The notes under the pieces were generated by a model. That model was not told the DNA's origin and made no database searches. It saw nothing but the letters and a program-made list of their open reading frames with translations. A stretch of 41,801 nt of DNA from a virus. This document shows positions 1,289 to 3,401 of this stretch, piece after piece. The stretch is from IMG/VR virus record IMGVR_UViG_3300025426_000056, positions 1-41,801 of that record; one strand, 5' to 3'. Position 1 is the first letter of the stretch. Each line of letters starts with the position of its first letter. A program made the translations under genes and the position numbers.

Positions 1289-1546
1289 ATGATAGCAATT
1301 CACACGAAATATATAGCGCCAACAAATACCAAGGGTGCGCGGATTAAAGCTTACACCCACAGTAGATTCTCAGTCGTGGTTTCTTATCCTTACGAAAAAT
1401 CAACTGAGATGGCGCACTATGAAGCCGTGAAAGCATTGGCGGAAAAATACCATCTCTCATGGTCTATAGATGCCATGTGTTTTGGTGATAGTGCTGATGG
1501 CAAGGGATATACCTTTTGTTTTAATCAATCAAAAATCGCAGCTTAA
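1289..1546 (+). CDS. Small conserved phage protein, unknown function
   Basis: An 85-residue soluble protein starting MIAIHTKYIAPTNTKGARIK and ending in a DGKGYTFCF block. This N-terminal pattern is familiar from small uncharacterised proteins in phage early regions; I know of no assigned role. GGAGATTGAGAC precedes the ATG, the leader shared by many genes in this genome. It is first in a seven-gene operon, 68 bases after the putative promoter -10. Confidence 0.75.
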   Translation: MIAIHTKYIAPTNTKGARIKAYTHSRFSVVVSYPYEKSTEMAHYEAVKALAEKYHLSWSIDAMCFGDSADGKGYTFCFNQSKIAA

Positions 1547-1559
1547 TGGAGATTGAGAC

Positions 1560-1772
1560 ATGGAGAAAATTGACGAACATTTGAAATATCCTCGCTTAGA
1601 CGATAAAGGTCAGCCTGATGAACGTTATGAGGTAAACTATGAGTGGACGGGTTATTCAATCCCCATGTTAGTGTTGCGCTTTTGCGGTGAATCCATAGGT
1701 TGCCCAAAAGGTCTTACAACTGCGCGAAGGATTGCCGAGGCGCATTACAATGAAATGATTGGCCTTAATTGA
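1560..1772 (+). CDS. Hypothetical small phage protein (70 aa)
   Basis: Starts MEKIDEHLKYPRLDDKGQPD; no recognised domain, signal or membrane segment. It begins 13 bases after the previous stop with the same GGAGATTGAGAC leader. The 22 bases up to and including its ATG also occur before the gene at 2740, implying duplication of the junction. Its stop overlaps the first bases of structured leader element 1. Confidence 0.65.
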   Translation: MEKIDEHLKYPRLDDKGQPDERYEVNYEWTGYSIPMLVLRFCGESIGCPKGLTTARRIAEAHYNEMIGLN

Positions 1773-1830
1773 TTGCAGCTTCAAGCACCATAGCAATATG
1801 GTGTTTGTGGAAGCAATCAAGCTTCATAAT
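1771..1830 (+). ncRNA. Structured leader RNA element, copy 1
   Basis: Outer strands GATTGC (1771-1776) and GCAATC (1813-1818) can pair around a 9-bp stem, 1783-1791 with 1798-1806, closed by the loop AGCAAT. GAAGC at 1810-1814 can pair either with GCTTC upstream (1778-1782) or with GCTTC downstream (1821-1825), giving two exclusive folds. Compared with the other copies, the ribosome-binding sequence after it is degraded (AGCGA where the others have GGGGA or GGAGA). It precedes the gene at 1847. Confidence 0.6.
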
Positions 1831-1846
1831 ATAGCGAATTAACATC

Positions 1847-2080
1847 ATGCAATATCAACTTATTATTCCACCAATAGCAGAGACACAGATAACGGGTTTT
1901 GCAATGGCTGCTGAAAAAATTATTGGCAACTCTCATTGGCGCTTAGAGATATGGCGCGGTGAAAGCTTGCCTCGTGCTTATAAAGACGGGAAACCGCAAG
2001 AGAGCATCAAGGTGTGCAGTAAGTCTGTTATAAATCTTAGCAATGCGATTGTGTTGTTTTATAATCAAACAAAAAACTGA
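1847..2080 (+). CDS. Hypothetical phage protein (77 aa)
   Basis: Starts MQYQLIIPPIAETQITGFAM; soluble, mixed alpha/beta look, no known domain recognised. It follows leader element 1, whose ribosome-binding segment is weaker than in the other copies, so expression may depend on the folded leader or be low. The next gene begins 13 bases after its stop with a good GGAG site. Confidence 0.65.
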   Translation: MQYQLIIPPIAETQITGFAMAAEKIIGNSHWRLEIWRGESLPRAYKDGKPQESIKVCSKSVINLSNAIVLFYNQTKN

Positions 2081-2092
2081 AGGAGTATTGTT

Positions 2093-2377
2093 ATGCTTAC
2101 ATTTAATATCGAATTAACTGACACTTTTGGTGGTGTGGCGAATTATGCGTGGGTTAAGCGTGCTAGTGTTGTTATGCCTGAATTGACACACTATGGCTAT
2201 GACGGCTCGCAAGGGTATCATAAAGCAAATAAGAAAATGGAACGTGAGTTAATCAAGAAGGCCAAGAAAACCATAGGCCTATGCGGAAGGCATATTAAAG
2301 AAACATGGGGAGACACAATAGTCCTGCGTTATCCTTCTTCTAATGTAGTATGCTTTATAGAGATTGATCCTGCCTAG
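2093..2377 (+). CDS. Hypothetical conserved phage protein (94 aa)
   Basis: Begins MLTFNIELTDTFGGVANYAW and has a basic middle rich in Lys. The opening, an FNIELTDTFGG type followed by an aromatic stretch, is one I associate with small conserved phage proteins of unknown function. AAGGAGTATTGTT precedes the ATG. It lies between leader elements 1 and 2. No membrane segment or signal peptide is visible. Confidence 0.7.
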   Translation: MLTFNIELTDTFGGVANYAWVKRASVVMPELTHYGYDGSQGYHKANKKMERELIKKAKKTIGLCGRHIKETWGDTIVLRYPSSNVVCFIEIDPA

Positions 2378-2405
2378 TGTTTCCTTACCAGCGATTAGGT
2401 GGAAA

Positions 2406-2466
2406 AATTGCAGCTTCAATCCCATCATTCGTGGTGGGATTGTGGAAGCAATCAAGCTTCACAATA
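2406..2466 (+). ncRNA. Structured leader RNA element, copy 2
   Basis: Same architecture as copies 1 and 3 but with a different central stem: 2418-2426 pairs with 2433-2441 around a six-base loop. Five of the nine pairs differ from copy 1, yet pairing is kept on both sides (one is a G-U pair). ATTGC at 2407-2411 pairs with GCAAT at 2448-2452. GAAGC (2445-2449) again has two possible GCTTC partners, 2413-2417 and 2456-2460. A GGGGATTGAGAC ribosome-binding leader and the ATG at 2481 follow. Confidence 0.65.
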
Positions 2467-2480
2467 TAGGGGATTGAGAC

Positions 2481-2726
2481 ATGATTATGATAAACGAAAC
2501 GCTAATAAATCAAGCAAATAACGCATTCGGGAGAACTTTTTATCTTATCCACGCAAAAGCGGCGAACGTACCCGCTGGCTCTGGTACTAGATGGGATGAC
2601 GAGTGCTTCAAGGTTATTTCATTAGATCGCAATGGCACGCGCCATGGGCGGGCATACAAAACACTTGATGAAGCGCAAACAGACTTTGAAGCTTGCACAA
2701 CACCGATTGTCGCGATTGAAGCTTAA
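2481..2726 (+). CDS. Hypothetical phage protein (81 aa)
   Basis: Starts MIMINETLINQANNAFGRTF; the start may also be the second Met. It has a RAYKTLDEAQ stretch of the kind seen in small phage proteins with a beta-strand/helix layout, but no domain can be named. It is expressed from leader element 2 and ends 13 bases before the next gene, with the duplicated GCTTAATGGAGATTGAGAC junction in between. Confidence 0.7.
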   Translation: MIMINETLINQANNAFGRTFYLIHAKAANVPAGSGTRWDDECFKVISLDRNGTRHGRAYKTLDEAQTDFEACTTPIVAIEA

Positions 2727-2739
2727 TGGAGATTGAGAC

Positions 2740-3012
2740 ATGAGACTGATTATTGTTAATCGCGCTTGCGGATACATCTTCGCCGATATAATCGCAGAGA
2801 CACCTATGCAAGCAATCAAAAAAATGGTGGAAGATATGGACATTCGATCCAAATATTACCAGACGACAGAGCATGACAATAACGCTCAATATGATGTCTA
2901 TCAAGTAGATGAAGACTTCCCGCAAGTAGATGACGGCCAAGATCAAAATCTAATTGAAGCACTAGAAAGATCGGGCAAGTATATCGCAAGCATAGCAATG
3001 GAAGAGGCATGA
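2740..3012 (+). CDS. Hypothetical acidic phage protein (90 aa)
   Basis: Starts MRLIIVNRACGYIFADIIAE; a short beta-like start is followed by an acidic, Asp/Gln-rich second half (VDEDFPQVDDGQDQN) and a C-terminal helix. No domain recognised. A strong GGAGATTGAGAC leader precedes it. Its stop overlaps the first bases of leader element 3. Confidence 0.7.
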   Translation: MRLIIVNRACGYIFADIIAETPMQAIKKMVEDMDIRSKYYQTTEHDNNAQYDVYQVDEDFPQVDDGQDQNLIEALERSGKYIASIAMEEA

Positions 3013-3070
3013 TTGCAGTTTCAAGCACCATAGCAATATGGTGCTTGTGGAAGTAATTAAGCTTCACAAT
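3011..3070 (+). ncRNA. Structured leader RNA element, copy 3
   Basis: Central stem 3023-3031 with 3038-3046 is a perfect 9-bp match closed by AGCAAT. The third pair is G-C here but G-U in copy 1. The outer pairing GATTGC with GTAATT survives through G-U pairs. A downstream GCTTC at 3061-3065 is retained, followed by AGGAGATTGA and the ATG at 3086. Confidence 0.6.
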
Positions 3071-3085
3071 ATAGGAGATTGAAGT

Positions 3086-3349
3086 ATGGCATACAAAATT
3101 ATTATTTCTCGCCAATCCGCCGTTTTGTATTTACAAAAAGAATACGGGACGCAACGCGCTAATGTTATGCTTAAAAACATGCAAAAAGCAAAGGAAGGTT
3201 TTTGGTTTTTACCAGATATTTTTTTTGGAAAGCTTAAAACCAAAAAAAATGCCGTTGCATTAGCAGAAAGAGTAAAAATGAACGTTTTTTATCAACAAGG
3301 GAAACTTGGCAAAAAACTTGCTGACCCTTGTGTTTATCTAATAGATTAA
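3086..3349 (+). CDS. Hypothetical basic phage protein (87 aa)
   Basis: Starts MAYKIIISRQSAVLYLQKEY and is rich in Lys with several short helices; predicted basic, so nucleic-acid contact is possible but unproven. Last gene of the small plus-strand operon, translated from leader element 3 with AGGAGATTGA as ribosome-binding site. A rho-independent terminator follows about 20 bases after its stop. Confidence 0.7.
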   Translation: MAYKIIISRQSAVLYLQKEYGTQRANVMLKNMQKAKEGFWFLPDIFFGKLKTKKNAVALAERVKMNVFYQQGKLGKKLADPCVYLID

Positions 3350-3369: not shown

Positions 3370-3401
3370 ACCCCTTAGTTTTTGGCTAGGGGTTTTTTTT
3401 T
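3370..3401 (+). terminator. Rho-independent terminator of the plus-strand small-gene operon
   Basis: ACCCCTTAG and CTAGGGGT form a stem with one unpaired base and a short T-rich loop, followed by a run of nine T. Confidence 0.8.

Follow-up and report, generated by a model that had tools for sequence, protein, structure and literature searches.

The question raised by this locus is what three repeated hairpin elements, each lying between genes of one phage operon, are and what they might do there. The window, that is, the whole 41,801-base stretch of DNA that was analysed, comes from an IMG/VR phage record (a virus of bacteria). Seven small ORFs on its plus strand (1289-3349) are readable as one operon, and a known function was found for none of them. 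The elements occupy the junctions ORF 2/3, 4/5 and 6/7, splitting the genes 2+2+2+1, and the remaining junctions are only 12-13 nt long. Element 1 is preceded by a 70 aa ORF (1560-1772) and followed by a 77 aa ORF (1847-2080); element 2 lies between ORF 4 (94 aa, phrog_22729, 2093-2377) and an 81 aa ORF (2481-2726); and a 90 aa ORF (2740-3012) ends inside element 3, which is followed by an 87 aa ORF (3086-3349), all on the plus strand. Homologues of ORF 4 (2093-2377) occur in Caulobacter, Agrobacterium and Stenotrophomonas phages, and some of those in giant Caulobacter phages are located within the terminal repeats or close to them; the phrog_22729 ORF could possibly be an early host-takeover gene. 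At the operon end, a hairpin with a T run resembles an intrinsic terminator (3372-3401, plus strand). The terminator scan listed none overlapping the three elements, and their identity as intrinsic terminators or transcription attenuators was rejected, the combination of a GC-rich stem and a U run not being met at any of the three. The count of sigma-70 promoters in the region was near the shuffled level.

A sequence-only reading had placed three repeated hairpins in this operon, and this claim held. The copies lie at 1770-1834, 2405-2469 and 3010-3074 (plus strand), with elements of approximately 58 nt. The 22-mer TTGTGGAAGCAATCAAGCTTCA, allowing up to 3 mismatches, had 3 matches in the window and 0 in 100 shuffles, and the fold z-scores of copies 1, 2 and 3 were -4.1, -2.8 and -6.0. 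The three window copies are real and not chance matches.

Each element follows one plan: an upper stem (U) stands on a lower stem (P1), whose 3′ arm, referred to as the shared arm, is used again in a hairpin further downstream (P2). Because the same arm, GAAGCAAUC, is used in both P1 and P2, the two helices exclude each other. U comprises 14 positions, namely a C-G or U.G pair, a U.G pair, a U.U mismatch and then 11 pairs with a tetraloop. Copies 1 and 3 have GCAA as this loop and copy 2 has UUCG, both of them stable RNA tetraloop types. In element 1 (1770-1827, plus strand, as are all three), the P1 5′ arm (1770-1776) begins with the stop TGA (1770-1772) of the 70 aa ORF, U is formed by 1779-1792 and 1797-1810 around the GCAA loop (1793-1796), the shared arm spans 1810-1819, and P2 pairs 1810-1814 with 1821-1825. 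P1 of copy 1 pairs UGAUUGC with GCAAUCA, and P2 reads GAAGC-AAUCAA-GCUUC. Element 2 (2405-2462) has U at 2414-2427/2432-2445 with the UUCG loop and P2 at 2445-2449/2456-2460; it is the exception in that the upstream stop (2375-2377) lies 39 nt before U. In element 3 (3010-3067), the stop TGA (3010-3012) again falls in the P1 5′ arm, U is at 3019-3032/3037-3050 with the GCAA loop, and P2 (3050-3054/3061-3065) includes one U-G pair.

Several details of the sequence-only reading had to be corrected. Its six-base loop is a tetraloop plus the closing pair, its nine-pair central stem is 11 pairs with the U.U mismatch and CU/GG (14 positions), and its upstream GCUUC:GAAGC pairing is replaced by the favoured (U)GAUUGC:GCAAUC(A). 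The downstream GAAGC:GCUUC hairpin, which it had set against the upstream pairing as mutually exclusive, held. Also upheld was the claim that five pairs differ between copies 1 and 2 with both sides changing together: five U pairs differ, and 5/5 are changed on both sides. The claim of three differing central stems held only in part. The upper stems of copies 1 and 3 are identical save for one G-C/G.U difference, and therefore the window alone yields only two stem alleles. The framework of copy 3 carries C-to-U changes that keep the pairing as G.U. A ribosome-binding site had been claimed after each copy, which was also only partly borne out: an SD-like AGGA/AGGG follows P2 by approximately 6 nt in copies 2 and 3, and no recognisable SD was present in copy 1.

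Relatives were found in other phages. Scanning viral contigs with exact patterns recovered close copies (L004-L006), of which L006:980-1037 is the copy-2 element unchanged with a different gene behind it. Two diverged members (L007 and L011) belong to a different phage group, with a nearly identical framework and a wholly different U. Covariance model R1, applied to 80 phage loci located by the L007 terminase, gave three further members with different arms, and a structure scan together with a second covariance model (R2) then yielded a subfamily II of 18 sequences. Covariance-model E-values are rough. In subfamily II, U has 14 positions and often a GNRA loop, P2 mostly spans 5-8 pairs, and the SD is preceded by a conserved ACCTAAC linker. 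The deposited phage MW202825.1 carries one more member, which lacks an annotation there, and the same plan recurs with unrelated sequence in related phages. In the loci found through the terminase, subfamily II included, all members are divergent from the terminase gene.

Some further features are recorded as observations. In subfamily II, the linker ACCTAAC(T/A), between P2 and the SD, is nearly invariant despite the variable helices (loci including L178, L191, L140, L195 and L206), and a similar TCCTAAC precedes SDs in L096 and L232. Two U.G wobbles in U are invariant in 16/16 subfamily II sequences (alignment A6 columns 16/46 and 26/36), and the neighbouring pairs vary freely. An ArdC-type antirestriction gene lies directly upstream of the elements in L140, L178, L191, L193, L195, L206 and L221, with varying small genes downstream; the L140 copy carries PF08401/PF18818.

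Other searches were negative. Against Rfam 15, the window gave no match at the gathering score, and only chance-level matches appeared in four loci at E<=5. Distant blastn against named phages returned only chance matches of 21-23 nt. An 18-mer of the 3′ box had 21 loci in GTDB genomes, about the chance number, none preceded by a hairpin. The pattern TTGATTGCA..GAAGYAATYAA in viral contigs gave, known members aside, 35 loci, all without the structure. The earlier statement that this is not a known class is supported, without an Rfam match, and the family, absent from Rfam, has probably not been described before.

The pairing itself was assessed by covariation. For P1+U in 16 subfamily II sequences, 96.6% of cells were paired compared with 77.2% after shuffling, a value reached by 0/500 shuffles; 15/22 pairs had two-sided changes, with 68 two-sided changes in total. 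Controls in which P1+U was slid were only 31-45% paired. A MAFFT-only alignment not fitted to structure gave 97.7% paired, with two-sided changes in 13/22 pairs. For P2, the MAFFT alignment was 97.4% paired versus 76.9% in shuffles and contained 28 two-sided cells (0/500 for both), and the covariation score was also above the shuffles (0/500); the number of changed P2 pairs and of pair types was not above the shuffles. The permutation tests are inflated by sequence kinship; the slid controls retain that kinship and still fail. Where a column belongs to both helices, changes come as triples across the P1 5′ position, the shared position and the P2 3′ position, the triple reading A-U-A in L178a, G-C-G in L111 and C-G-C in L200. 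When arms were swapped between members, only P1, P2 and U were weakened, and a third pairing with the ribosome-binding site or the loop showed no covariation in these tests. The outcome that would have refuted the pairing, many one-sided breaks in further copies, was sought and not found. Thus, the proposal of a cis-acting RNA with two exclusive folds is supported, both shared-arm pairings covarying across the wider data, and the two alternative folds very probably exist.

To define prevalence, an initial strict scan, which missed the window's own copies, and a loose scan with many chance matches were both replaced by a gap survey with shuffles. It covered 472 gaps (50-115 nt long) separating ORFs of the same direction, in loci located via a terminase or ORF 4. 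The P1/U/P2 plan was present in 37/472 gaps (approximately 8%), compared with 1/2400 shuffled gaps at the same score (1/1040 and 0/1360 shuffles at the survey threshold). The surveyed loci were chosen since related phages carry the element, the ORF calls are heuristic, and the score thresholds were fixed after members had been seen. The ORF-4 loci, which are largely independent of the family-defining loci, showed the plan in 17/208 gaps versus 1/1040 shuffles. Of the 77 gaps that contain a strong hairpin, 19 had both P1 and P2 versus 0.9 expected (approximately 20-fold), and P2 without P1 was at chance (4 versus 3.2 expected). The unit is therefore the two alternatives together, given that P1 and P2 co-occur and P2 by itself does not exceed chance.

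The sequence-only reading had not noticed that most members have the stop codon of the upstream gene within the 5′ arm or immediately ahead of it. Counted from the first stop base, U begins at a distance of 6-15 nt in 30/37 gaps, compared with 46/211 (22%) in shuffles, and in a curated set of 31 elements U starts exactly 9 nt after the first stop base in 13. At this most frequent position (-9), members differ in which stop they use (TGA, TAA or TAG), and the TGA of copy 3 corresponds to TAA in L005. At -9, being a stop is thus what is kept, although the codon differs. In copy 2 and a few others, the stop is 17-39 nt before U. The three helices, their mutual exclusion, the stop-codon placement and the recurrence of the element are shown by sequence comparison.

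Among known systems, the closest are ribosome-controlled attenuators and translational coupling by RNA unfolding (PMC12548453), in which exclusive hairpins are likewise set by ribosome position and a stop lies at the regulatory arm. In contrast, our elements have no leader peptide, terminator or hairpin at the ribosome-binding site and are a repeated part between ordinary genes. The early RNase III sites of T7 are similarly long imperfect hairpins between small early phage genes; however, a clear shared-arm second hairpin was not found in T7, and our elements have a stop in or next to the 5′ arm. Cluster K mycobacteriophages carry a conserved 13-bp start-associated sequence (SAS) and, upstream of a subset of these repeats in the non-structural half of the genome, sequence-conserved 17-bp inverted repeats (ESAS) of unknown function (PMC3203893). 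The window also has a start-associated repeat, GGAGATTGAGACATG, which precedes genes at eight places when as many as 3 mismatches are allowed, versus 1.1 expected (1277, 1548, 2469, 2728 and 3074 on the plus strand; 5899, 6426 and 6663 on the minus strand). The elements and this repeat combine somewhat like SAS/ESAS, but the Cluster K SAS, GGGATAGGAGCCC, is absent before starts in the window, whose own repeat differs. Scored for the P1/U/P2 plan, 6/10 SAS sites of TM4 had a score of 0, three had 38-41 and one had 48.5. The HK022 put RNA, of approximately 70 nt, with two adjacent stem-loops in phage early transcripts (PMC9378689), is alike in size, stem-loop arrangement and presence in early transcripts, but put occurs in early-promoter transcripts without a described shared arm, and a sequence relation was not found; put also binds the zinc-binding domain of RNAP beta′ and suppresses termination. 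Identity with put was not supported: its location, one per operon and promoter-proximal, is not met by three intercistronic copies, two of them starting at stop codons. As known examples of the plan, the TM4 ESAS, the T7 RNase III sites and HK022 gave no convincing match.

What such an element does remains an inference, there being no ligand, probing or expression data behind the word "switch" used in the earlier reading. Our best explanation is a phage family of intercistronic, bistable, cis-acting, attenuator-like RNAs gated by the terminating ribosome; the gating is inferred from anatomy, and we consider the chances of this explanation being right or wrong to be roughly balanced. Both states would contain U. 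In state A, the stretch at the upstream stop, or immediately beyond it, would pair with the shared arm as P1; in state B, the shared arm would pair downstream to form P2 shortly before the SD of the next gene. A ribosome with a stop codon in its A site covers approximately 12 nt beyond it. The footprint of the terminating ribosome would thereby take in the P1 5′ arm as far as the base of U, so that P1 would be blocked and P2 would form, and without terminating ribosomes P1 could form. The element would in this way signal to the mRNA further downstream whether the upstream gene is being translated. This geometry of stop codon and footprint therefore suggests that termination of the upstream gene chooses between P1 and P2. 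A ribosome-gated bistable RNA is expected to have two exclusive helices, one of them within the expected ribosome footprint at a fixed codon, and this is met, in anatomy only. When the segment from the stop to 12 nt beyond was kept unpaired in silico, the median P(P2) rose from 0.04 to 0.95. Since ruling out P1 necessarily shifts the calculation towards P2, it indicates feasibility only, not proof; in silico, several subfamily II members favour P2 even without a ribosome. The stop position could also be a mere consequence of genes ending where a non-coding element begins.

The output of the element was considered separately. A translational attenuator acting by SD masking was not supported: no arm covaries with the ribosome-binding site, which the earlier reading had not noticed, and the predicted accessibility of the site is equal between the states (median 0.56 versus 0.57). 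Because of this, the element probably does not act by masking the ribosome-binding site directly. Cleavage or decay, standby binding or re-initiation, and transcription remain possible. The output itself is unknown; control of mRNA cleavage/decay or of downstream initiation is the most plausible, though tentative, candidate.

The main rival, ranked second and considered possible, is an mRNA processing site. Here, the P1+U stem of state A (approximately 22 positions with a small internal loop) would be cut by an RNase III-like enzyme; the upstream mRNA would end in U, and the freed shared arm would form P2 as a 5′ protective hairpin downstream, so that P1 and P2 would be sequential rather than a regulated choice. 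In its favour are the intercistronic position, the P1+U length in subfamilies I and II, the internal loop at the P1/U junction and the 2+2+2+1 separation of genes in the window. Early mRNA of T7 has processing sites that the elements resemble. It would also account for a strand used twice, as the substrate first and then as the product's 5′ hairpin. However, the total stem is shorter in several further members; the T7 RNase III sites, examined at assumed positions, lack a shared-arm P2 save for a borderline score at R1.1, a level also reached several times by sliding windows over HK022; and cleavage is only inferred, without cleavage data.

A passive stabiliser or insulator is unlikely. In that case, U would protect the upstream 3′ end or halt post-termination ribosomes, and P1 and P2 would be by-products of arm duplication. 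U is indeed the strongest helix, and the one with the greatest regularity, and is located at the front edge of a terminating ribosome, but P1 and P2 both show covariation, and P2 lacking P1 is no commoner than chance, which is not expected of by-products.

It is very unlikely that the elements are mobile DNA, or a recombination cassette, sitting at gene junctions in the manner of the T4-type promoter-stem-loop cassettes, with the RNA fold secondary. For it speak the downstream genes that differ while the element stays (L006 versus copy 2), the differences downstream of the same ArdC-type gene among L191, L095 and L178, and a copy-1-type element at the copy-3 locus (L005:8852-8909); the L005 and L006 patterns possibly reflect gene exchange at the elements. 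Against it, compensatory changes with G-U pairs, frequent GNRA/UUCG loops, a covarying P2 and the strand-specific siting ahead of start codons point to selection at the RNA level. Changing neighbours around a retained element are also known from other phage junction cassettes. Mobility does not conflict with RNA function, and this rival is compatible with the ribosome-gated reading. A transcription-level element like HK022 put, whose two adjacent hairpins would act on RNA polymerase against pausing or termination in the early operon, shares with state B two adjacent stem-loops within approximately 60 nt of RNA but is very improbable given the stop-codon intercistronic sites, three copies in an operon rather than one near a promoter, and no Rfam match.

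Returning to the ribosome-gated element, a bolder reading is that it represents a widespread, phage-specific class of stop-codon RNA switches for which the terminating ribosome is the signal; on balance, we lean slightly against it. If it is true, the element would be a standard part reused between small early genes, with each downstream gene or mRNA segment responding to the preceding translation. How the many small genes of phage early operons are timed and dosed relative to one another is poorly understood, and a recurrent RNA part that senses termination would, if real, provide a simple and compact means of operon wiring.
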